Shown here piece by piece: positions 3,232 to 21,061 of a DNA stretch of 64,000 bases. This stretch comes from Thermoprotei archaeon (lineage in GTDB: Archaea; Thermoproteota; Thermoprotei; QMSL01; B3-G16), in NCBI GenBank assembly GCA_021162845.1, contig JAGGXX010000027.1:60957-124956 (forward strand), in the 5' to 3' direction. The notes beneath the pieces are model-generated. The model saw nothing but the letters and a program-made list of their open reading frames with translations. It was not told the DNA's origin and did no database searches. The position numbers were made by a program, and so were the translations under genes. Numbering within the stretch: the first letter of the stretch is position 1; the number at the start of each line of letters is the position of its first letter.

Positions 3232-3753
3232 TTGTATAGGAGCCTTAATGACCTGAGGAAGAGGCTAGATAGGCTGGAGGAGGAGATACGATCAATTAGG
3301 AGGGAGGTCGATGCGCTTAAGGATGAATTCTCATATATACGTGAGAGAATTAGCGAGCTTGAGGGGATCATAGAAAGAGGAGTTAAGGTTAGAGGGAGGA
3401 GACGGAGGTCCTATGCTTGGGTCCTAGATCTTCTGAGGGAGCATGGTTTCCTAACTCCTATCACTGAAGGCAACACGGTATCATTATTCAATGCTGAAGG
3501 GAAGAAGGTAGTCGAAATAAGGTACAGGAGATTGTTAGAGAAGGTCATAGAAAGAGCGAAGGTCATACGCGATGAGAGTGGTAGGGAATGGTTGATTGAT
3601 GAGGAGCTCTATGAGAGCCTAATGAGGAAATTACCCCTCAGAAGGGAGGAGGTTTCGAGGGTTTTAAACGAGAAAGAAGAGAAACTTCTTGAGCTCTTAA
3701 ATAGGGCGGGCTATGTCCTGCTTAAAGGCAGAGCTTATGTAAAGGCTACCTAA
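3232..3753 (+). CDS. Hypothetical protein with N-terminal coiled coil
   Basis: 173 aa, TTG start; heptad-like LNDLRKRLDRLEEEIRSIRREVDALKDEF; open frame. Confidence 0.55.
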   Translation: MYRSLNDLRKRLDRLEEEIRSIRREVDALKDEFSYIRERISELEGIIERGVKVRGRRRRSYAWVLDLLREHGFLTPITEGNTVSLFNAEGKKVVEIRYRRLLEKVIERAKVIRDESGREWLIDEELYESLMRKLPLRREEVSRVLNEKEEKLLELLNRAGYVLLKGRAYVKAT

Positions 3754-4823
3754 ATAACCCTTAACTTCTCACCGCGAGGAGTTAATAGGATGGCCCCCGC
3801 GTCAAGATGCCTGACTAAGATTAGGCCTTCGGGATATATGTTAAATCCGAGTTTATTGACTTCGTCTAACTCACCTAATCCCAGTTTCACGTAGAGATAA
3901 GGCATATTGAACATAGGATCGAGCTTAAGGGCCTTTATAGTAGCATAGGACCATAATGCGAGGGTAGTATGAGCCTTTATGTTTACCTCGGTCACATGGG
4001 GGATCCCTGAGGCATCCTCTTTGAGATCCACACAGTAGAAGCCTGAAGGGGACGGATCTATAGCCTTAACAGCCCTGAAGGCAATATCATTTACCTTCTC
4101 ATCATGAATTATTCTAGCTACAGTAGGCGTACCCGTGATCCTCGAGGGCGAGAGATGGGGAAATATATAGGCTAGACGTTCCCTGGCATAAGATGCTATT
4201 AGTTCCCCTTTATACCAGAGGCTATCCCAAGCTATATCCCTTCCTGGTAGGTATTCCTGAAGTATTAATTCTTTCGGCCTTATGATGCCCCTCTTAATCC
4301 ACAGCCTAGCCCATAGTTGAAGCTCCTCGAAGCTACTCACTGGTAAGCTTAATCTACCGCCAGCTCCCTTTCTAGCTCTAATCCACCCCTTTTTCATCTC
4401 CCTTAAGAAGCACTCGATGTCCGGATCCGTATAAAGTCTGGTCTCCGGCACGGGTACGTTAGCTTCCTTTAAGCGTAGGTATGTGAGGTATTTATCTCTA
4501 GCAACCTTGATGACCTCAGAATTCGGTATCAGCATTGGAACGGGGACTTCATCCCTCCTTGCGGATAACACCTCTACTTCAACTTCAGGTTGAGGATGTA
4601 TGAATTCCACTTTATGCTCCTTCACTATCCTGAGTATCAAATGCAAGAAGTCGGGATCATCATGTCTAGGGCTCTTATACCGGACGTCTACGGGTGCAAG
4701 GAGTAAATAATAATAATGATAATCTGTTCCTACGATGAACAGCCTTTCTGGGGCCATTCTAAGGGCACGTACGAAGTTTATACCACCGACACCACCAGCT
4801 CCGGTTATCAGTATGCGCCTCAT
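3750..4823 (-). CDS. ATP-grasp / carbamoyl-phosphate synthase large subunit-like protein in glycan cluster
   Basis: MRRILITGAGGVGGINFVRAL N-terminal Rossmann; ARKGAGGRLSLPV, LILQEYLPGRDIAWDSL ATP-grasp signatures. Confidence 0.75.
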   Translation of the reverse strand: MRRILITGAGGVGGINFVRALRMAPERLFIVGTDYHYYYLLLAPVDVRYKSPRHDDPDFLHLILRIVKEHKVEFIHPQPEVEVEVLSARRDEVPVPMLIPNSEVIKVARDKYLTYLRLKEANVPVPETRLYTDPDIECFLREMKKGWIRARKGAGGRLSLPVSSFEELQLWARLWIKRGIIRPKELILQEYLPGRDIAWDSLWYKGELIASYARERLAYIFPHLSPSRITGTPTVARIIHDEKVNDIAFRAVKAIDPSPSGFYCVDLKEDASGIPHVTEVNIKAHTTLALWSYATIKALKLDPMFNMPYLYVKLGLGELDEVNKLGFNIYPEGLILVRHLDAGAILLTPRGEKLRVI

Positions 4824-4846
4824 CGCCTCATCGCACCAGCAAGTCC

Positions 4847-5656
4847 CTAATGAGCCCTAGAACTCATATAAACGTTATATGCATCAATACACCTTAGGAA
4901 TTCATGCTCGTGTTCGTGAAGCCACCATAACAATTTCGAATAGAGCCTACCGCCCTTCATTCTGAAGGATTCCTGGTGAAAGAGGAGCACTATAAACTGT
5001 GAACCACTATTGATGGCCCTCTTAAGCTTCCATTCCATGAACCTCCATGCTGAGTCCTCGCCTAGATGTAATCGTCCAAAGAGATCCGCGTCCATAAGCG
5101 TTATAGGCAACTCTAGCAAGGAATCCCTTATCAGATAGGGATCGTATCTCCCAGCGGTCTCGCATCGAATGCTCGAATCATAGCGGAAGCCCAGATTAGC
5201 ATAGAGGCTAAGGACCCATTCATCGCAGATCAGGTAATGGGAGCGTACGCCCATGGGTCTAAGGCCCAAGTAATCGCGGAGATAGTTCAGTTGCATGCGA
5301 ATAAGGCCGTCTCCTTGGATCCTCTCCACAACAGCATGAAGGCCTATTTCCCATCCTTCATCGCTCAACGACTTCAATTCATCGAAGACTGGATCTAAGG
5401 GAAATAGGAATGCGGGAATGAAGAACGTGGACTTGGCACCCACATCGTCCTCTATATCAGCGATTCTATGGAAATTATCATACAGATTGGTCAGGCCTAA
5501 GAGGTGAGCTATAAGGTCAGTTAACCTGAAACGAGACCTTATGCGTAGTACATGGGACATGGGCTTCGATACGGAATCTGCATCGTGCGTGAGCACTATG
5601 TACGTCATGCCATAACCAAAAATAGTGTGTTTAAAGTCATTATTAGCGTTACCCAA
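4847..5656 (-). CDS. Polysaccharide deacetylase-like protein
   Basis: YIVLTHDADSVSKP, STFFIPAF, WEIGLHAV, GVRSHYLICDE, LFHQESF: NodB-like TxDxD/HxxxH-type motifs. Confidence 0.7.
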   Translation of the reverse strand: MGNANNDFKHTIFGYGMTYIVLTHDADSVSKPMSHVLRIRSRFRLTDLIAHLLGLTNLYDNFHRIADIEDDVGAKSTFFIPAFLFPLDPVFDELKSLSDEGWEIGLHAVVERIQGDGLIRMQLNYLRDYLGLRPMGVRSHYLICDEWVLSLYANLGFRYDSSIRCETAGRYDPYLIRDSLLELPITLMDADLFGRLHLGEDSAWRFMEWKLKRAINSGSQFIVLLFHQESFRMKGGRLYSKLLWWLHEHEHEFLRCIDAYNVYMSSRAH

Positions 5657-5710
5657 TATTCGCGGATCCTAATGAAGTAGCATGGCCTCTCCGTTCATTA
5701 ACTCCTCCCT

Positions 5711-6880
5711 CTAAGTCGAAGCGAGCTCATCTACGTACTTGATTATCTTTACCTTGTATTCATCTTCAGAGAAGGCATGAGCCCGTCTCAGGGACAGGGA
5801 GCTATAATGGTTCCAGAGATCCTCATCGGAGAGCAACGAGTATATTTTCTCGCTTAGCTCATCGACATCCTCAAATGCGAGACCCCATCTGCCTTTCTCT
5901 ATTATGTCCTCGTATGGGCCGCCACTTTTGTGAACTATAACGGCTAAGCCTGAGGCCATGGCCTGTACTACGGATATCCCGAAGTGCTCATTAACCATCG
6001 CATGCACATAGACCTTACATCTACCTAATACATCCAGGAGATCGGCGAAGGGCGCATCAGGCATCATGATGACGCGATTCTCTATACTGAGCTTCTTGGC
6101 TAGTTCCCTTAGCTCATGCATGTACCTGATAGAGCCCGTGGCCTGAGAAGAACCTATCAGATATAACTTTGATCCTTCTACCTCTTCAGCGACTTTCGAG
6201 AATGCCTTGATTATCACCTCAAAGCGCTTCTCCCTTACGAAACGCCCTACGCTTACTATGCTAGCCTCTCGGCCTTCCCGTTTCTCATTCCAAAAGGACC
6301 TTATGTCTACTGGTGGATAGACTACGTCTGCCTCAACGCCCCACACCTCTTTTATCTTCGCTTTAGTGAAATTAGAATTCGTGAGTACGATCTCTTCGCC
6401 GCTTGGCTTCCATTTCCTCAGAAGCCAGACGTAAGGTCTAGCGTAGAGGTTTAAGGGGAACCTTTTGTAACGCGGACTTTCCATGATGGCCAAGGACGTG
6501 GGATAATGGCAATAGAGGATGTACTTACCCTTTAGGGAAAATGGAATCATATCACCGTGGGTATTTATGATAAGATCGAGTTTGCCTCCTTCTAATAACC
6601 TCTTAGCGGTCAGCATCACGAGTATACGCTGATATAGTGAGAACTTGTTGACACCAGAGAGAAGCCCATGAAGTGGACGTATATGTTTACCGACCTTTAG
6701 CTCACGGCCATAAGATGTTCGTATGCTCTCTGAGACCGTTTCAAGGGAGGAGTCATTCGAGATTAACCATACGTCGATATCGGCGTCCCTTAATGCCTCA
6801 ATGGTAACCATTGCTAAGAACTCACCCCCGCCCCGGGCGGTAAGTCTATGATGCACCACTCCGACTCTCATAGTTTTCAT
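5711..6880 (-). CDS. Glycosyltransferase family 4
   Basis: GGGEFLAMVTIEAL; SVGRFVREKRFEVIIKAF; EHFGISVVQAMASGLAVIVHKSGG (E-x7-E GT4 motif). Confidence 0.9.
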   Translation of the reverse strand: MKTMRVGVVHHRLTARGGGEFLAMVTIEALRDADIDVWLISNDSSLETVSESIRTSYGRELKVGKHIRPLHGLLSGVNKFSLYQRILVMLTAKRLLEGGKLDLIINTHGDMIPFSLKGKYILYCHYPTSLAIMESPRYKRFPLNLYARPYVWLLRKWKPSGEEIVLTNSNFTKAKIKEVWGVEADVVYPPVDIRSFWNEKREGREASIVSVGRFVREKRFEVIIKAFSKVAEEVEGSKLYLIGSSQATGSIRYMHELRELAKKLSIENRVIMMPDAPFADLLDVLGRCKVYVHAMVNEHFGISVVQAMASGLAVIVHKSGGPYEDIIEKGRWGLAFEDVDELSEKIYSLLSDEDLWNHYSSLSLRRAHAFSEDEYKVKIIKYVDELAST

Positions 6881-6896
6881 CGCCTTACTTAACGTG

Positions 6897-7799
6897 CTAC
6901 TTCTCCTTTGGGCCCAAGAGATGTGTTCGTATTATGTTATTTATATCCTCCTGAACTACGTCAAAATCACGTTCAGTATTGAGAATTGGAGCATGTAGCC
7001 TCTTAGCCAAGTTAAAGAAGGCTTTCCGGGCCTTATAATAATACCAAAGGGGATGCTCTGCTCCACGACGTTGAAAGGATATCTTAGGATCCACATCGAA
7101 GACTATGAGTAGGTGAGGACGAGGCACCAAGCGCAGGTAGACCTTCTCCAAGGGCCTGGGCATGGGATAGCCGAGGCATTTAAAGCGTATGTAGTAATCG
7201 TAGAAGTACCTATCGGCTATGACCCACTCGCCCTTAAGCATATGAAAGAGCAGACGTAGGCCTATGTAGGCCCAATTATCAATGTATTGGGCTATGGGGC
7301 GTATTTTGGGCAGTATGCCCCGCCTTAGGTGCAGGCGGAACCCAGGGGAGTACGTCCTAACCTCATCCTCACTTACCCTAACGATCTTACGTTTAGCTAG
7401 GGAAAAGAGAGTAACTAGGGGATGCCTGAAGAAGTGATAATAAGTGACCGGGACGCCTAGGCCCTTAAGCCACAACGCAGTTTCCTTCGCATGGGTTGAC
7501 TTACCGGATCCGTCTATTCCGGTGAAAACTATGAGCTTCCATCTCCGCATCCTTCGTAAGCTTTCATCGTTTAGGACGAGTGATATTATAAGGGGTATCG
7601 ACGATAGAAGGATCGGAAGGACCTCAAGGATAGCAAGAGCACATATCATCACCCTTATGGTATTGGCCTTGTCCCTTGTTAGGGCGAAAAAGAGCAGAGG
7701 CAAAAACATCACTAGTAACATCATTAGAGGGACATCGAGGAATACCCTTAAGCTTATCAGAAATATGTATTCGAGCACTAGAAGTATCTTCATCTTCAT
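6897..7799 (-). CDS. Membrane-anchored thymidylate kinase-like P-loop kinase
   Basis: N-terminal TM helices followed by FTGIDGSGKSTHAKETALWL Walker A and ADRYFYDYYIR DRY-type motif. Confidence 0.75.
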   Translation of the reverse strand: MKMKILLVLEYIFLISLRVFLDVPLMMLLVMFLPLLFFALTRDKANTIRVMICALAILEVLPILLSSIPLIISLVLNDESLRRMRRWKLIVFTGIDGSGKSTHAKETALWLKGLGVPVTYYHFFRHPLVTLFSLAKRKIVRVSEDEVRTYSPGFRLHLRRGILPKIRPIAQYIDNWAYIGLRLLFHMLKGEWVIADRYFYDYYIRFKCLGYPMPRPLEKVYLRLVPRPHLLIVFDVDPKISFQRRGAEHPLWYYYKARKAFFNLAKRLHAPILNTERDFDVVQEDINNIIRTHLLGPKEK

Positions 7800-9352
7800 G
7801 ATTTCACTCTCGTCAACATGTCCTTCAACTCGTTAAACGATATTCTCACCAATTGACGGAACTCGGCATCTAATGCATAGAGAGCTAAGCAATATGTGAT
7901 GAGACCTATGAGGAGATAGGGGAGGAGGAGTAATATGGCCTCTCGCGTCCTTAAGCTCCTACCCAAGGTTTCATCCGATATAAAGAAGGTCTTGACCAGA
8001 AGAATAGCTAGGACCATCAAGATGGAAGAGGAGATGTAGTTTAAGAGAGGACGAAGCATCCTTAGACCCATAATAGCGCCCTTTAATAGATGCGCTTTAA
8101 CTGAGGATACTAAGAGCGAGGAGAGCGTTCGAAGGACTATCATCCACATTATAAGATGGAGAGGATTCGTCTTCACTATTAGAAGATAAGGGGCTAGGAG
8201 GGAGAGGTATAGGACAGCTCCTAGTATGTCTAGCGTAGGTATCAAGGTTAGTTTAGATTTAAGGAGGCGACGAAAGGAGGGAGATTCTAGGTCTGCACTC
8301 TCAAGGCCCCTTAGGGAAGCGCCTAGTAGGGAGGATATGGCGAAGATCGTTGAAAAGAGCATCATCAGAGGTAGTAAGGGCGAGACGCTGATATATGCTT
8401 CACCAAACACGGATAAAACCTCCCTTGACAGGACTAGAGCGCCGAATATTAACGGCATATTTAGCATTAACGTAAGCTTTAGCATGACCTCTATGCTCTT
8501 GGCCACTTCATGGATTTCCGAACTGGAGAGAACCTTGCTATAAAGGACTTCTGAAAGTCTAGTCACATATGCCGCAACACCGCCCACTGACATAAGAACC
8601 TGGATGAGGCCCAAAGTCACCTTGGGATCGAGCGCGAGGGAGTTAACCAAGAAATTGTCAAGGGTGTAGATGTAACCTGGGAGTAAACTGTAAAGCTGGA
8701 CCCAGGACATCAGATACCATGCCTTCAATACCTCTTTATCAAACTTCGTGGACGACAATTCCTTTCTCAGTAATATCAAGAAGAAGGATATACGGGCGAT
8801 GAATGCTATCAATACGGAGGAAAAGGCTATTAAGAGATCACATGATCTGAGCGAAAGGACTAACGCGTAAAGCAATAACACCTTTAACGTCTCGAAGAGG
8901 TATTCTCCATAACCTAGCATATGAGGGGCTATGGCTTGAAGACTGGAAGAGGTCACGTAATTCATGGTCAGTATCGGAATTGATAACATACTTACTAACA
9001 TAAGAGGAGGGACATGCCTTAATTCAGGTATCACGGATGGGGATAGGATGAGGAACGCAAAAGATGAGGATACGGCTAAGAATAATCCATTTAATGTCCC
9101 TGTAATTGAGGCCGAGACTATCCCCCTAGCTCTATAGCGGGTTATCCAATCATTGAATATCCTTGAGGGGAGGAGGAAGTACACAAGAAGAGCATTGATG
9201 AGCCGCCATAACCCTACTTCTTGAGGTAGTAGGTTCCTCGTTATAAGGGTAGTGAAAACTAAGCCTGTAAAGGCGGAATAGATTCTCGCCGAGAAGTTAA
9301 CGAGCCCACTGTATCTTAAGCGGATCCTAGGCCTGCTGTGCTGTCCCTTCAT
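7796..9352 (-). CDS. Polysaccharide flippase/MATE-like membrane protein
   Basis: 518 aa polytopic; NFSARIYSAFTGLVFTTLITRNLLPQEVGLWRLI typical Wzx N-terminus; glycan neighbours. Confidence 0.75.
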   Translation of the reverse strand: MKGQHSRPRIRLRYSGLVNFSARIYSAFTGLVFTTLITRNLLPQEVGLWRLINALLVYFLLPSRIFNDWITRYRARGIVSASITGTLNGLFLAVSSSFAFLILSPSVIPELRHVPPLMLVSMLSIPILTMNYVTSSSLQAIAPHMLGYGEYLFETLKVLLLYALVLSLRSCDLLIAFSSVLIAFIARISFFLILLRKELSSTKFDKEVLKAWYLMSWVQLYSLLPGYIYTLDNFLVNSLALDPKVTLGLIQVLMSVGGVAAYVTRLSEVLYSKVLSSSEIHEVAKSIEVMLKLTLMLNMPLIFGALVLSREVLSVFGEAYISVSPLLPLMMLFSTIFAISSLLGASLRGLESADLESPSFRRLLKSKLTLIPTLDILGAVLYLSLLAPYLLIVKTNPLHLIMWMIVLRTLSSLLVSSVKAHLLKGAIMGLRMLRPLLNYISSSILMVLAILLVKTFFISDETLGRSLRTREAILLLLPYLLIGLITYCLALYALDAEFRQLVRISFNELKDMLTRVKS

Positions 9353-10227
9353 GAGTCCACCCGCTCAGCAGCTATTGGAATGTAGAGTAACCTCTGATGG
9401 AGACCGAAGGGGGTGCTCAAGAATATCTTTAGTCGAAGCACAAGCTTCTCCATCGGAAGGGATTGAAACCCATCGGGGATGCCCAATACTATCGTTCTCT
9501 CTGCGTAGTCGCCGGCTTTCACCTCAAGTAGGCCGTAGGAGAAGTCCTCACTAGTGCTATTAATTAGCTTTTTCCCCAAGAGGAGATCATAGATTAAGGT
9601 CTGTACGCGAAGCATTCCTTCGCCCCTATTGAGTATTCTTACACGAACGAGGACCTTATCGTCTTCAACTCTGAAGGAACTTAGTTTAACGTCCATTAAG
9701 CTTATCGAGTTGAGATCTCGTGAGTAGGCGTTATAACTCCTAACCAGCAGAGCTGATGACACCGTAAAGATACACACGAGCATAAGCCACGCGATCCTTA
9801 GTACTGTGCCAGCATTCTTGTTTAAGGAAACGAGAGATCTTAAGTACAAGCCCACGAAGGAGGATAATAATGAGAGGGGCAGAGAAAGGATTATCGAAAA
9901 GAACGTCATATTCCTCACTATATGAAACCACAGAGCTAGCTCCGCGGATAGATGGCCGAAGAACAGCTCTAGGGGGTGTTTGGCAAGGGATGTAGCCAGT
10001 ACATGTGCTAATATAAATGAGCATGAGAGGGACAGTAAGCTCATTTTAGGGCTAGTCATTAAAAAAGACATTAGGGCATAGTTAAAGGACATAAGGAGTA
10101 AATACATCATGGATAGATATGGGGATGGAGGAGTCAGCGAGACCTTGAAGAAGAAGTACGCGGGTAGGAAAGAAGCTGCAGTGAGCGCTACTAGGGGCGA
10201 TAGCTTTTCACGCATCCACTCGCGCAT
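9349..10227 (-). CDS. Membrane protein with C-terminal extracytoplasmic beta (CARDB-like) domain
   Basis: Multiple TM helices then DVKLSSFRVEDDKVLVRVRILNRGEGML... Confidence 0.5.
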   Translation of the reverse strand: MREWMREKLSPLVALTAASFLPAYFFFKVSLTPPSPYLSMMYLLLMSFNYALMSFLMTSPKMSLLSLSCSFILAHVLATSLAKHPLELFFGHLSAELALWFHIVRNMTFFSIILSLPLSLLSSFVGLYLRSLVSLNKNAGTVLRIAWLMLVCIFTVSSALLVRSYNAYSRDLNSISLMDVKLSSFRVEDDKVLVRVRILNRGEGMLRVQTLIYDLLLGKKLINSTSEDFSYGLLEVKAGDYAERTIVLGIPDGFQSLPMEKLVLRLKIFLSTPFGLHQRLLYIPIAAERVDS

Positions 10228-10235
10228 TAGCTTTG

Positions 10236-11687
10236 CTACCTCCTAGCCCTGAGCCTAGGGTTGAATATCTCATCAAGGGCGTAACCGAAGAGTATAAAGC
10301 TGAGGGCGAAGACAGTAAGCATTAAGCCCGGAGGCAGTATCCACCACCATATCAGCCTAGGGAAGGCACCGGCCAGTTCAGCTTTATAAAGCATCCTACC
10401 CCACGAAGGAACCCTAGGATCCCCGAGACCTAGGAAGCTAAGAGAGGCTTCTAATAGAACGGCTCCAGGAACTGAGAGAGCCAATTGAACGTATACGAGG
10501 GGTATCAGCTGGGGTATTATGTGCTTGATTATTATGTAGATATCAGAGGCCCCAACAGCCTTAGCCGCTTCCACAAAGAGGCTCTGCCTTAAGGAAAGGG
10601 TATATGACCTTACCGTACGTGCAAAGGCCATCCAGCTTAAGGAGGCTATGAGTAGTATCTGCAGATATATGTTCTTCCCGTAAAAGACGCTCAACGCAAT
10701 AAGGAGAGGCAGTATAGGCATGAAGTAGAGAGTATCAGTTATGAACAACAACGTTTGATCCATTATCCCGCCTTCATACCCAGCTATAACCCCGACGACT
10801 AATCCGAGGAGTACAGAAATGGATGAGGCGAGGATGCCTACTATCATCGATATTCTAGCGCCGTAAAGTAGCTGAGAGAATAGGTCACTACCATTATTAT
10901 CTGTGCCGAGTAGACCGTATCTCAAGCCTGGAATTCCGAAGACAAGATCCTTTAACGCTAAACTAATGTAACCTCCTTCAACCTCATCACGATCGATAAT
11001 AGTTATATCTAATCTGAGCACGTATTCCCCTTTCTCCTTAAATATAATGGGAGCTAAGTCAGCAAATGGATCAACACCTAACCGTAATTTGAGCGTGACA
11101 TCTCTCGAGTCAACTATCAAAGGGGTGGTCATAGTGACCTCGTCCCTTGCGATTTTCTTGTCCACCAGCAGATAGCGCTTCCCCTGAGTATCCTCAAGGT
11201 ACACTCTTAGCTTGAGGTAAGAGGAATGAAGGTCTCGAATTGTAGCAGAGTACCTTAGTCTAAGGTAGAAGGTCTTAGGAGGAACGAAACGGTAGTCGAA
11301 CTTATAGGTAAAGGAGACATGCTCCTTACCACTGAGCTCAGAGGTCTTCTCATATTCTATAAGTAAACCTTCATTGGCCCTTTCAATCGATATCTGACCT
11401 GAGTTCTCAACTAACTGCCAATCATTCGCAGTGACGTTATGGATTATGTTCGGCGGATAGTCCTTGAATTGAGGAAATATGACGAACCAATCAGGAACGG
11501 CATATCCCTCAGCTAACCTCATCTCAAAGGGATCATGAGGAGAGATATAGGGGCCTATTAAGCCTAATATGAGGTAGAAAAGGAGAAGGAGGAAGCCCGC
11601 CATGCCAACTTTATTTCGCTTCAATTGACACATGAAGTTTAAGAATGAGGCTATTATTTGGCGTTTCCTAAGCCTCTTAACGCTCAT
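10236..11687 (-). CDS. ABC transporter permease, DppC/OppC type, with large inserted extracytoplasmic domain
   Basis: GLIGPYISPHDPFE N-term and LLGTDNNGSDLFSQLLYGARISMIVG ... EAAKAVGASDIYIIIKHIIPQLIP EAA loop; ~190 extra residues between them. Confidence 0.88.
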   Translation of the reverse strand: MSVKRLRKRQIIASFLNFMCQLKRNKVGMAGFLLLLFYLILGLIGPYISPHDPFEMRLAEGYAVPDWFVIFPQFKDYPPNIIHNVTANDWQLVENSGQISIERANEGLLIEYEKTSELSGKEHVSFTYKFDYRFVPPKTFYLRLRYSATIRDLHSSYLKLRVYLEDTQGKRYLLVDKKIARDEVTMTTPLIVDSRDVTLKLRLGVDPFADLAPIIFKEKGEYVLRLDITIIDRDEVEGGYISLALKDLVFGIPGLRYGLLGTDNNGSDLFSQLLYGARISMIVGILASSISVLLGLVVGVIAGYEGGIMDQTLLFITDTLYFMPILPLLIALSVFYGKNIYLQILLIASLSWMAFARTVRSYTLSLRQSLFVEAAKAVGASDIYIIIKHIIPQLIPLVYVQLALSVPGAVLLEASLSFLGLGDPRVPSWGRMLYKAELAGAFPRLIWWWILPPGLMLTVFALSFILFGYALDEIFNPRLRARR

Positions 11688-12715
11688 TCTAATCTCACCC
11701 GGGGATCAACAATACCTAATACCACATCAACTATGAGGAGGGATATCAGGGTTAATACTATGTAGATGAAGAGGACGCCCTGAACTATCGGAAAATCGAA
11801 TTGCATTGATGCGTCGAATAGCCAGCGTCCAACGCCATACCAGGAGAATATGGTCTCAGTTATGACAGCACCGGAAACTATACCCGGCAGCGTAAGGGCT
11901 AAAATCGTCAGTATGGGACCTAATACGTTCCTAAGTACATGCTTGAACATTATGATCCTTTCGGGGACTCCCTTAGCCCTAGCTGTGATTATGTAATCCT
12001 GACCAAGTTGGGAGACCAGGAGGCTACGGATCAATAGCGCGAAACCGCCGAATCCTACTACAGTTAAAGTCGTTAAGGGAAGGGCTAGGTGATGTAGGAG
12101 ATCTAGAACATACGCGACGGGATCCCTAGGCGGTGGCCTCGAGACCGTCCCAGCTATTGGAAAGAGGCCTAGATAGTAACCGAAGCAGAGGAGGAGAAGG
12201 AGGCCTACGAAGAATGCAGGAAAAGCGTTTAGGAAGAGCCCAAGGCCTACTACGGTTGCATCGACCTTGGATCCTCGCTTCATAGTAGCCACTATACCTA
12301 CCGTAAGGCCTATCAATACTTGGAGGACAGTAGCCGTTCCTAGGAGGAGTACAGTATTTGGAAGCCTTTCCATAAGCTCAGCTGCTACAGGCCTCCCAGT
12401 ATAGAGAGAATAACCTAGATCTCCTTTGAAAAGGGACAACACGTATCGGATGAACTGATTTGGGAATATGGGCTCGTCCAATCCAAATCTACTTCGAATA
12501 AGCTTTTGCTGCTCCTCGCTCATATGAGGATTGAGGAAGAAGAATGAGGGATCTATGCCGAGTACATAATAGGGAATTACCCTCAGTAATACGAAGCTTA
12601 ATATCAAAGCGAAGAATAGGACTAGGAACCTGTCAACAGCCCTTCTAGCCAAGTACCTCCATAGGCCGGCCATTCCGTCACCTTCCCCCTTCTTAAGGTA
12701 AGCTGAGTACGGCAT
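11684..12715 (-). CDS. ABC transporter permease, DppB/OppB type
   Basis: FGLDEPIFPNQFIRYVLSLFKGDLGYSLYTGRPVAAELMERLPNTV; YIITARAKGVPERIIMFKHVLRN. Confidence 0.92.
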   Translation of the reverse strand: MPYSAYLKKGEGDGMAGLWRYLARRAVDRFLVLFFALILSFVLLRVIPYYVLGIDPSFFFLNPHMSEEQQKLIRSRFGLDEPIFPNQFIRYVLSLFKGDLGYSLYTGRPVAAELMERLPNTVLLLGTATVLQVLIGLTVGIVATMKRGSKVDATVVGLGLFLNAFPAFFVGLLLLLCFGYYLGLFPIAGTVSRPPPRDPVAYVLDLLHHLALPLTTLTVVGFGGFALLIRSLLVSQLGQDYIITARAKGVPERIIMFKHVLRNVLGPILTILALTLPGIVSGAVITETIFSWYGVGRWLFDASMQFDFPIVQGVLFIYIVLTLISLLIVDVVLGIVDPRVRLE

Positions 12716-12802: not shown

Positions 12803-14926
12803 TTACCCCTTGCCCCTCCGCAATACTACGTATACTGCCGCGATTATGATGACCACTACGACTATTGCCACATAAGGTAAGTAGCGCTCATAGGAGGGCC
12901 TTATCGTTATGGACGTCTCCACGCTTCTCGAAAGCTTTGCAGTTCCAACAGTACCGGAGGCAGTAACGCTGATACGACAGTCACCAGTGACCCCTTCAGC
13001 GGGCATTTCAACTGTGCAGGAACCTCCTGTGGCCGTAACTTGTTTCTCGCTAACCACGCTACCATCAGGAGCTACGAGCCTCACTACAACATTAGCATCT
13101 ACGGGCTTACCAGTATAATCCTTAACGGTGATACTGAGTTTAGCGGACTCATCTGAATATATGCTTGAGGGGGCTTCTACTGATACCTCTAGCGTCTTGC
13201 CTGGGTGTCTCCTCCAGTAATTGGGGTTCCAGACCAATAGTATGTATTCGCCTGGCTTCCTATCCTTGAATATGAAAGGCCCCGTTCCTATTAAGCACGT
13301 AAGGCCTGGCACTTTCGGATGAGGTACCTTACTTGGATCCCACTTATCCCATCCACCCTGCTCATCGATGAAGGTTTTATCACCCCATATATGCTTCGGG
13401 ATTATAGGCACGTTTAGGTCGTAAAGGTAGGCCCAACTGGTTCCGTTAACTACGATCTTTATCGTATACGGATCTGGAACCTCCGTCTTTATTAGGTTCT
13501 GTATGGGTACTGCGTAATACCTGCTGACCTTGTTCTCCTTTATAAACCAGAGCGTGAAGTTAACATCATATGCCGTGAACGGCTCACCGTCCTGCCATGT
13601 TACATTCTTAACTAGGTAGAACGTAACCTCCATGCCCTTATGACCTCCCTCAAGCGTCACTTCTTTGACCTCCCACCTCTCTGCTAGCCATGGAAGATCC
13701 TTGGTTACATCATCTGGATGAGCTATGAAGAGGTAATCGAATATACAGTCCATGACATCCCACTCATCGACGGTCATTGCGGTCATTGGATTAAGGGTTC
13801 TGGGATCTGAACCTAGAACATCCTTAAATCTACCGCCTAGTGGCTGGCCTACGAGGAAGACGTTTAGAGGTGTGAGCCAGCTCATACCGCCCAATGGCTT
13901 CAGAAGAACTATGCCGCTTACTTCCTTTCTAACGCCTACTCTTGCGTAAGTCATGTATAGGGGTATCCAGGGTAATTCATCTGACAGTATCTCCTGAACC
14001 TTCTTAGCCGCAGTCTTCGCTTCTTCTATATCGGTAGTCCTGTAGAAGGTCTCAAGTAGCTCATCGACCTCAGGGTTGCTATAGCCCCAGTAATTATAGG
14101 AGCCATCGGACCTGAAGAAGTCGTAAAGGTAAGTAGGATGCCTTCCTAGAGCCCATCCCAGTAGGTACATATCGTAGTCAAGCTTTATGATCTTAGCCAC
14201 CATAGCCTGGAACTCCATAGGGGCCAGCTTTAGCGGGAAGTGTATCTTATCCGCGTCCTCTTTTAGCTTAACGGCTATCTTAAAGAGCCATGGGGCCTGC
14301 GATTCAGGAGGTATTAAAAGCTCAACTTCTCGGACTTCTTTACCGTCGGGGTCATACCACTTACCGGTAGCTTCATCGAACTTAAAGCCCGCATTGAGTA
14401 AAGTCTGCTTCGCCATATCGATATCATAGGCATAAGTCTTGACATCAGGATTATACCAGTCTCCATACGCCGGTGGGACGAAGGTTTCAACAGGAACGCC
14501 ATAGCCTCCAAAGACCTCGCGTATTATCCACTCTCGGTCAACTAAATGGGCCATCGCCTGCCTGAATGCCTTAATGTTAAGGGGCCATCTTCGAACGTTT
14601 ATCTGTATGGCGAAGATGCTATAGGTCTGATAGAACAAGAGGTCTATATTAGGATCCCCCTTGACCTGTTCGATGTCCTCAGCCCTCAGACCGGTGATAT
14701 GTATCTCACCCTTCTTAAGGGCAAGGAGACGGGCGTCAGGTGACGTTATTATGGATATGAGGTATTCGTCAACTCTAGGCCCATGAACGTCCCATTCAGT
14801 AGCCAAGACGGATGGTTTCTCCTCTTGGGACATCGTCGCTGAGGGGAACAATGACAACGCTAACAGCATTAAGGACAATACTACGTAAACGTGTGCTTTC
14901 CTCATAGAATACACCCAATATAGCAT
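12803..14926 (-). CDS. ABC transporter family-5 substrate-binding protein, apparently circularly permuted, with C-terminal Ig-like domain and TM anchor
   Basis: Contains both halves of SBP_bac_5 but in reversed order; C-terminal YVAIVVVVIIIAAVYVVLRRGKG anchor. Confidence 0.88.
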   Translation of the reverse strand: MLYWVYSMRKAHVYVVLSLMLLALSLFPSATMSQEEKPSVLATEWDVHGPRVDEYLISIITSPDARLLALKKGEIHITGLRAEDIEQVKGDPNIDLLFYQTYSIFAIQINVRRWPLNIKAFRQAMAHLVDREWIIREVFGGYGVPVETFVPPAYGDWYNPDVKTYAYDIDMAKQTLLNAGFKFDEATGKWYDPDGKEVREVELLIPPESQAPWLFKIAVKLKEDADKIHFPLKLAPMEFQAMVAKIIKLDYDMYLLGWALGRHPTYLYDFFRSDGSYNYWGYSNPEVDELLETFYRTTDIEEAKTAAKKVQEILSDELPWIPLYMTYARVGVRKEVSGIVLLKPLGGMSWLTPLNVFLVGQPLGGRFKDVLGSDPRTLNPMTAMTVDEWDVMDCIFDYLFIAHPDDVTKDLPWLAERWEVKEVTLEGGHKGMEVTFYLVKNVTWQDGEPFTAYDVNFTLWFIKENKVSRYYAVPIQNLIKTEVPDPYTIKIVVNGTSWAYLYDLNVPIIPKHIWGDKTFIDEQGGWDKWDPSKVPHPKVPGLTCLIGTGPFIFKDRKPGEYILLVWNPNYWRRHPGKTLEVSVEAPSSIYSDESAKLSITVKDYTGKPVDANVVVRLVAPDGSVVSEKQVTATGGSCTVEMPAEGVTGDCRISVTASGTVGTAKLSRSVETSITIRPSYERYLPYVAIVVVVIIIAAVYVVLRRGKG

Positions 14927-18964: not shown

Positions 18965-21061
18965 CTAACGCTTTCGAAGTCTAAACCGCCTTGACTTACG
19001 CTCTTCTTCGAATTCTTCAGGAGGAGCTATGAGACCCTTGTAAGTCCTCTCCCGGAGCATCCGCCTTATGAAGGACATCGCGAAGGATGCCCCTACGATT
19101 ATGAGCCCTATAAGGACAAGACCGAGCCATAGTGGGAAGGCTTTACCATCTATAGTAAAGAAGACATCTAACCTACACTCCTTATTCAGGGTCGGTGGAT
19201 CATTGTTAGAGAGGGTGACGGAGTCCGTAGTGCTAGCATCTAAGTATCGCACCCTAATTATATATGTGCCGATGGGGAGCTGTTCAAAACGCACTCCGCC
19301 GGATTTAGTCTTCACCTCACCTATCTTATTGGCGGAGAGCCATAGCTCTACATACGCTCCGTCGAGCGGCTGACCTAATACCCCCTTAACTGCTACTACA
19401 AGGTCATGAACGTTACATACTAAATTATCCTCAAAGTCGCCCCTGGGGTTCCCCTGATACGGCAAGGATACTTTAAACGAGCCCACCTTCACGTTCCTCC
19501 AGGACACATTAAGCGAGTAAACTCCTGCGGGAAGTGGACCGAGATCCAGGAAACCCGATGAACTGGTCTTTAAGTGAAGATAGCTTCCGTTGGCCATGTA
19601 CATGACTACCTTCGCCCCCGCTAAAGGTGCCTTCTTGAGATCAGTTATTCTAGGCCTGAACAGGTATACTTCACAGGGTAATTCGATCCTGGCGAAGGAT
19701 CCGAGCTCCTCAGGACGGAAGTACTTCTCCCCTACCAATATGCCCTGCCAATAAACCTCAGCCTTATAAAGAGCCTTAGGCAGTTTATAGAGGGTTATCT
19801 TCCCTCTGGAATCGCATCTGTCCTCCAATAACAGCGTGGTGGTACCTCCTTTCAGTACGTAGAGACGTATTAATGCGTTTCTCAGGGGCACTGAATTGGC
19901 GCCTAAGGCATATGCTTTAAGCATGACATTGTATATCGGAAGAGATACGGTATACGTCTTCGGCCCGGATATCTCGAACGAGTAAGCACTCCTTATGCCC
20001 CGCCACTCGCTATATATGGTATACGTCCCGTCGATTATACTGGAGATCCTGACCTCTCCGTTTTCATCAGTCCGTATATCGATTTCCTTATTGACATGCG
20101 GAAGAATCAGCTTGAAATCCGTATCGTTTAAAGGGTATCCGAGGGTATCCGTGAGGCGTAGCACGACATCATAGACTTTACACATGACCTTTATGGGCTC
20201 CGTATACGTATCGGAGGTTAGCCAGAACGTGTCCTCATAAAGCGTAATCAAGCCCCACCATGAAACCTTAATCGCGTACTTACCCTTAGGCATGCCACTC
20301 AGGTCTATGGTAGGGCTATTGAACGTGAGCGACGTCCCATTGGGATGCGTTATCTGTACCTCTATCCCCTTTAGGAAAACATCACCTAAGGACCATTGAG
20401 CTGGTAGCGGTTTATAGGCCATGTCATAGATCCTTATCGTAAGGGGGAATACGTGACATTTAAGGGTGAGCACCGATGGTACGTTACCCCTTATGAATAA
20501 ACGGCTTTCAGTGTAGACATCTACTCCCTGCCACTCGACCTTGATGTCAAAGGTATTATCCTGTCCTTCTTCCACGCTAAGCGGTATATTTACCTTCAGT
20601 GAGCCGCTCTTGTTAGCAGTACCTGAGAAGTGGAAACCATTCCTCCCCGTTATGCTGAGCTTAGCGGATAGAGGCCTGCCCTCATAGTCAGTTACGTTGA
20701 ACACCACTGGATAGACTGAAACTTCATGTTTCTTCGCAATTTCCATGAGGCTACTGTCTTTAAGGTAATATACCAATACACCTTCATAATAGACCTTCAG
20801 GCTAGGGTTGCTGACCTTAAGCGACCCAACGTCTATCTCGACTTCACCATTTGCATCGGTAGTATCATGCCCTATTAATTCGCCTGTTCCATTATAGAGG
20901 TACACCTCGGCGTCCTTAAGGGGATCACCTTCAGTATTGCATATCTTTATGTTTATGATGAAAATAGTCCCATACGCGCCTTGGAATAATTGAAGTACGG
21001 AGGACAAGCATAATGCGAGGATTAATATCGTAAGGATGCATGATGCCTTAGAGGGCAGCAT
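18965..21061 (-). CDS. Predicted surface-anchored protein with tandem carboxypeptidase-regulatory-like/Ig-like repeats
   Basis: Signal peptide; repeated SxWxGI/V strand motif; C-terminal TM FPLWLGLVLIGLIIVGASFAMSFIRR followed by basic tail. Confidence 0.75.
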   Translation of the reverse strand: MLPSKASCILTILILALCLSSVLQLFQGAYGTIFIINIKICNTEGDPLKDAEVYLYNGTGELIGHDTTDANGEVEIDVGSLKVSNPSLKVYYEGVLVYYLKDSSLMEIAKKHEVSVYPVVFNVTDYEGRPLSAKLSITGRNGFHFSGTANKSGSLKVNIPLSVEEGQDNTFDIKVEWQGVDVYTESRLFIRGNVPSVLTLKCHVFPLTIRIYDMAYKPLPAQWSLGDVFLKGIEVQITHPNGTSLTFNSPTIDLSGMPKGKYAIKVSWWGLITLYEDTFWLTSDTYTEPIKVMCKVYDVVLRLTDTLGYPLNDTDFKLILPHVNKEIDIRTDENGEVRISSIIDGTYTIYSEWRGIRSAYSFEISGPKTYTVSLPIYNVMLKAYALGANSVPLRNALIRLYVLKGGTTTLLLEDRCDSRGKITLYKLPKALYKAEVYWQGILVGEKYFRPEELGSFARIELPCEVYLFRPRITDLKKAPLAGAKVVMYMANGSYLHLKTSSSGFLDLGPLPAGVYSLNVSWRNVKVGSFKVSLPYQGNPRGDFEDNLVCNVHDLVVAVKGVLGQPLDGAYVELWLSANKIGEVKTKSGGVRFEQLPIGTYIIRVRYLDASTTDSVTLSNNDPPTLNKECRLDVFFTIDGKAFPLWLGLVLIGLIIVGASFAMSFIRRMLRERTYKGLIAPPEEFEEERKSRRFRLRKR

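Follow-up and report, generated by a model that had tools for sequence, protein, structure and literature searches.

The 707-amino-acid protein encoded at 12803-14926 on the minus strand is very probably a circularly permuted, membrane-tethered substrate-binding protein (SBP) of an Opp/Dpp-type ABC importer. The window referred to below is the whole stretch of 64,000 nucleotides that was analyzed, which comes from a draft Thermoprotei genome. The reading frame is single and uninterrupted, and its sequence makes the protein homologous to the family-5 SBPs, yet a topological variant of them. This assignment draws on direct observations, namely the order and the single copy of the two halves, their conservation, the clade that they form and the operon setting. 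The chain is composed of the following parts, listed from its N-terminus.

14819..14926, minus strand: signal peptide or N-terminal hydrophobic segment (aa 1-36), with a helix at 2-25 and a low-confidence stretch at 28-39 in the model; cleavage is presumed
13892..14794, minus strand: canonical second half (end of the lobe I part, lobe III and return strand; aa 45-345), matched by PF00496 and 5u4o
13841..13891, minus strand: linker between the old C-terminus and the old N-terminus (aa 346-362), with pLDDT below 50 only at 346-348
13202..13840, minus strand: canonical first half (GGRFKDVLGSDPRTLNP ... GTGPFIFKDRKPGEYILLVWNPNYW; aa 363-575), matched to 5u4o by phmmer and aligned continuously once the sequence is rotated
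12899..13201, minus strand: Ig-like beta domain (aa 576-676), with model strands at 580-676; the module also occurs in a canonical paralogue (G000:C52)
12803..12898, minus strand: C-terminal transmembrane anchor (aa 677-707), with a helix at 678-706 and the basic tail RRGKG

The Pfam profile SBP_bac_5 (PF00496) matched the protein in two stretches with an E-value of 8.5e-63 and a score of 213.1 bits, compared to a curated cut-off of 32.4, which places it in family 5 (Cluster C). In the best stretch, residues 45-277 correspond to profile positions 141-367 of 368, so that a late part of the profile lies at the start of the protein. Likewise, a phmmer search of PDB sequences aligned residues 51-324 with positions 229-490 of 5u4o and residues 435-572 with positions 105-225, and these exchanged positions indicate that the two halves are swapped. 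In its native order, the protein matched each of nine canonical relatives in two blocks of reversed order. A rotated sequence, made of residues 359-575 followed by 45-350, matched the same nine relatives in one continuous alignment each, of approximately 470-530 residues. The rotated sequence scored 207 bits against L170, compared to 134 and 87 bits for the native blocks, and 192 bits against L089, compared to 151 and 67 bits. Long single stretches were also obtained with PDB chains (rotated residues 13-499 with 4pft 15-493, and 62-502 with 1xoc 73-492). Thus, the protein has all of the fold segments and motifs, as well as the Opp setting, of the DppA/OppA-type family-5 SBPs (PF00496; e.g., 5u4o, 1dpp and 1xoc), but the order of its two halves departs from the canonical N-to-C order. 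Each segment is present once, in a cyclically shifted order. The break falls in the loop between the strand ending in NPNYW and the motif GPxxDxxLxxI, so that the new termini, NPNYW and GPxxD, are neighbors in canonical relatives (the canonical L089 runs on without interruption from one to the other), and the old termini are joined by the linker. The original prediction had placed the second half first, at 13845-14775, the first half after it, at 13180-13840, and the breakpoint after NPNYW; all three agree with the positions found here. Its placement of an Ig-like domain and a transmembrane anchor at the end of the chain is supported by the modeled strands and helix, together with weak Pfam matches to the Ig-like domain (Big_1, E 0.004).

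The same order of parts, C1-C2-N (termed CP-A), was found in a paralogue in the same genome that is 38% identical (G000:C42:44529-46577), and in seven further genomes of the same class (G001, G020, G024, G028, G042, G052 and G062). Named records with this order include Thermofilales, Bathyarchaeota, Methanomethylicota, Candidatus Culexmicrobium, Pyrodictiaceae and one Firmicutes metagenome-assembled genome. A match running across the junction of the old C- and N-termini occurs in at least about 51 of 398 sampled Thermoproteota genomes, a count that is a lower bound because no more than two candidates were scored in each genome. The genomes with such a match include many single-contig ones of 1.8-3.0 Mb from family f32, and reading of the open reading frames in the fetched loci bore out the CP-A order. 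The motifs of both halves are conserved among widely diverged permuted members, and the linker and junction region is common to the orthologues. We conclude that the CP-A permutation is old and widespread in Thermoproteota.

Other permuted orders occur in the same family. Two proteins, L017 (G003:C4) and L030 (G046:C38), have the order C2-N-C1 (CP-B), and their break, unlike that of the window protein, lies in a lobe III loop after LLDxAGFxDxDGDG. L017 bears an Ig-like domain and an anchor, as the window protein does, and L030 is encoded beside OppB, OppC and OppD genes. The order C2b-N-C1-C2a (CP-C) was found in a protein of the same genome (G000:C45:7773-9677) and in L185, L186, L203, L205-L212 and L217-L221. 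CP-C proteins have an N-terminal hydrophobic anchor, often a Ser/Thr-rich linker, and a break after GWxPDYxDPDDY. A fourth order, C1-C2a-[45-60 aa]-C2b-N (CP-A2), was found in L213-L216 and L222-L234. These proteins begin and end at the same points of the fold as the window protein and are close relatives of the CP-C proteins, with HSP identities mostly of 33-54%. Their insert of 45-60 residues sits at the position of the CP-C termini and resembles the CP-C N-terminal segment, as expected if an already permuted protein had been permuted again.

The four groups were named from topology before a tree was built from 81 sequences with IQ-TREE (LG+C20 PMSF), with the N, C1 and C2 columns placed in canonical order. 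CP-A forms one clade (98/95). CP-C and CP-A2 together form another (100/99), adjoining the canonical L235 (99/94), and CP-A2 is nested within CP-C (97/95 and 100/100). Unlike the window protein, members of this separate clade (e.g., L186, L209, L203, L214 and L225) carry an N-terminal anchor and no C-terminal Ig-like domain. L017 and L030 lie far apart in the tree. Constraints that joined the two CP-B proteins in one clade (AU p 0.0049), excluded CP-A2 from the CP-C clade (p 0.0001) or joined CP-A with CP-A2 (p 3e-48) were all rejected. The groupings and the rejected constraints together imply at least five permutation events in the family. The separation of CP-A from CP-C and CP-A2 is firm; the two CP-B forms apparently arose separately, each being represented by one draft-genome sequence, and the placement of L030 is the least certain, as several rows of the tree are uneven in composition and sit on long branches. 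Not visible to the original prediction, which had called for a search for other permuted family-5 SBPs, were the age and wide spread of the order and its place as one of at least five permutations of the fold.

This recurrence makes the window case more interesting as a phenomenon than as a single protein, and it bears on how the permutation is to be understood. The permutation could be real but a neutral accident, fixed once and then inherited, which competes only with an adaptive reading and to which we give an even chance. The CP-A order belongs to one clade and the rest of its operon is unchanged, as a neutral accident would have it, but at least four further permutations occurred within this family and phylum, including the re-permutation of a permuted protein. 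The recurrence suggests that the family-5 fold tolerates moved ends and a moved membrane tether unusually well, and frequent permutation may itself reflect neutral tolerance. More tentatively, and with odds that we put somewhat against it, the family-5 core of Thermoproteota may have been repeatedly, even serially, permuted because its lobes accept ends in several surface loops and the tether shifts between lobes, such that topology tunes tethered importers. Judged by the established DppA fold, the CP-A break presumably stays on lobe I and the CP-B and CP-C breaks on lobe III, so that the lobe held by the anchor would differ between groups. The natural variants, with three break positions and with N- or C-terminal anchors, make the effect of ends and tethering on binding and transport directly addressable.

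Natural circular permutation is already known as a phenomenon. To our knowledge, multiple independent and serial permutations within one binding-protein family have rarely been documented. A search of open-access literature found no paper on a permuted family-5 SBP; the lone paper containing both SBP_bac_5 and 'circular permut' had the two terms in unrelated places. The closest known case is that of TpMglB-2 (Tp0684) from Treponema pallidum, a natural circularly permuted, membrane-tethered SBP of an ABC importer for which the designation 'Type Ic / Cluster Bc' was proposed, with tethering also suggested as a reason for the permutation (PMC4990184). TpMglB-2 is a glucose-binding SBP of another family, Type I (Cluster B), in which permutation creates a fourth lobe crossover (PMC4990184); the window protein, by contrast, has its break in the loop beside the NPNYW strand. 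All sequence and fold matches of the window protein are to family 5, rather than to the Type I sugar-binding fold that defines Type Ic / Cluster Bc. Annotation or structure comparison that assumes linear order would cut permuted SBPs in half.

The fold of the window protein was predicted with AlphaFold2 from an alignment of 12 permuted relatives and canonical half fragments. For the whole chain, including the signal helix, the Ig-like domain and the anchor, the mean pLDDT was 89.4 and the pTM 0.80, and values below 50 were limited to residues 1-5, 28-39 and 346-348, the last of these lying in the linker between the old termini. From the pTM, the pLDDT and homology, the packing of the two halves against each other is a well-supported prediction, and the protein is expected to take the ordinary two-lobed shape of family 5. 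In the model, the positions equivalent to the CP-B and CP-C breaks fall in a hairpin or loop at approximately 185-200 and in a loop at 272-284. The top Foldseek matches were all family-5 SBPs, each over about 300 columns with a target TM-score near 0.5; since Foldseek preserves the order of residues, an alignment spans approximately one half. When PDB sequences were searched with a profile built from permuted proteins, no chain of permuted order was present among the 60 best matches listed.

The non-canonical order and the alignment of only one half at a time by Foldseek might also be expected of two incomplete SBP half-domains that were fused without forming one fold, as in a decayed or repurposed surface protein. 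We consider this very unlikely, since both halves are complete when measured against the canonical break, with one copy of each, the single-chain model is confident, the motifs of both halves are conserved and the gene stays in Opp operons. Slightly less probable still is domain swapping, in which two chains would pair and the working unit would be an intertwined dimer instead of a permuted monomer. Short linkers between old termini can favor such swapping, but the new termini of the window protein lie on either side of a loop that canonical relatives have without interruption, most of the linker (about 17 residues) is modeled as ordered, and canonical family-5 SBPs are generally monomeric. 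A tandem SBP duplication mistaken for a permutation was rejected since each half is present once, and an assembly or binning artefact that misordered the halves on a rearranged contig, conceivable for a draft genome of 68 contigs, is ruled out by the uninterrupted frame and by the same order in the 38%-identity paralogue, in orthologues from independent projects and in single-contig genomes. The circular permutation of the original prediction is supported by the reversed blocks that fuse upon rotation, the single copy of each half, the confident model and the recurrence of the order in the paralogue and in many unrelated assemblies. Neither of the outcomes that it had named as contrary, separate incomplete domains or an assembly rearrangement, was encountered.

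Directly downstream of the SBP gene lie OppB and then OppC, followed by a gene for a further membrane protein.

11684..12715, minus strand: OppB/DppB-type permease (PF00528, 1.5e-36; PF19300), 63-68% identical in orthologous operons
10236..11687, minus strand: OppC/DppC-type permease (PF12911 at 21-57, PF00528 at 295-480), lengthened by approximately 240 residues that lie between TM1 and the permease domain
9349..10227, minus strand: 292-aa membrane protein with no Pfam match, 22-31% identical to proteins at the same position in L040, L041, L043 and L045

The window OppC is 46-51% identical to the OppC of orthologous operons. Orthologues of the SBP in L040, L041, L042, L044, L045 and L053 are encoded in the order OppD-OppF-SBP-OppB-OppC, and in L043 and L046 an ATPase pair is encoded near the SBP on the other strand. 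The SBP gene thus stands beside OppB and OppC, with the ATPases adjacent in orthologous loci rather than in the window. No OppD or OppF gene adjoins the window SBP gene, and a scan of the window for ABC-ATPase motifs gave only two matches, at 51-53 kb, which indicates that the ATPases of this importer are probably shared. The paralogous permuted SBP, encoded on the same contig at a distance of approximately 29 kb, is accompanied by a complete set (L188). The L053 operon is flanked by genes for an FGGY carbohydrate kinase, a xylose-isomerase-like protein and a Gfo/Idh/MocA oxidoreductase, and a Gfo/Idh/MocA protein is also encoded near the orthologous operon in L042; these sugar genes are a weak hint of sugar uptake. 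We infer a transport function, in which the window protein would bind an oligopeptide or an oligosaccharide between its lobes and hand it to OppB and OppC, and OppD and OppF encoded elsewhere in the genome would power uptake.

In the same genome, a canonical paralogue (G000:C52:7314-9194; L003) ends in a homologous Ig-like domain and anchor (residues 576-700 of the window protein are 36% identical to C52:8811-9194). Its order is N-C1-C2-Ig-TM, whereas the core halves are exchanged in the window protein, which indicates that the tail kept its C-terminal place while the core rotated. The mode of origin that we infer is duplication, fusion and loss. The core would have been tandemly duplicated between the signal peptide and the Ig-TM tail, with a short linker connecting the old C-terminus and the old N-terminus; subsequent loss of the two outer halves, one first and one second, would have opened new termini in the loop after the NPNYW strand. 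Such a course would leave both the signal peptide and the Ig-TM anchor at their own ends. No tandem-duplicated intermediate was seen among the family-5 SBPs examined.

Several loci showed additional features. In the same genome, a canonical family-5 SBP gene (L006, G000:C45) is split into two open reading frames, of 415 and 194 aa, very close to the position at which its sister L017 is permuted. It was rejected as evidence for a split-gene origin of the C2-N-C1 order, given a missing stretch, a frame change and a second reading frame without a signal peptide, and it looks like a damaged gene or an assembly error. The orthologue in Thermofilum sp. NZ13 (L014/L046) contains a single TAG, in frame and within the first half of the gene, which could mark a pseudogene, an error or readthrough. 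The C-terminal tail is of another kind in some Bathyarchaeota CP-A members, dockerin-like repeats among them; in L056 and L118 these lie in long extra C-terminal regions (DVNGDGKVDILD...), which is unusual for a transport SBP. An SBP of CP-A order is encoded on a bacterial contig (L049, 6444-8491; Firmicutes bacterium UBA5389, DHON01000022.1), where its neighbors are GntR and ABC genes and a gene whose product resembles a CotF-type spore coat protein. It has an apparent lipobox signal in another frame, without the C-terminal Ig-like domain or anchor, and looks like an inter-domain transfer in which the anchor was changed.

Within the window, the extra residues of OppC probably form an extracytoplasmic beta domain. 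Orthologous operons with the permuted SBP likewise encode a lengthened OppC, of about 480-500 aa, which might contact the SBP, and the 292-aa membrane protein, which recurs after OppC in four loci, is a possible extra component. Downstream, the region 3750-9352 on the minus strand includes genes for a group-1 (GT4-like) glycosyltransferase, a protein with a weak polysaccharide-deacetylase-like (WbmS-like) match, an ATP-grasp protein and a multi-TM protein of 518 aa without a Pfam match, possibly a surface polysaccharide cluster. A 698-aa protein with repeated carboxypeptidase-regulatory or Ig-like domains, encoded near the transporter at 18965-21061 on the minus strand, is likely a surface protein.
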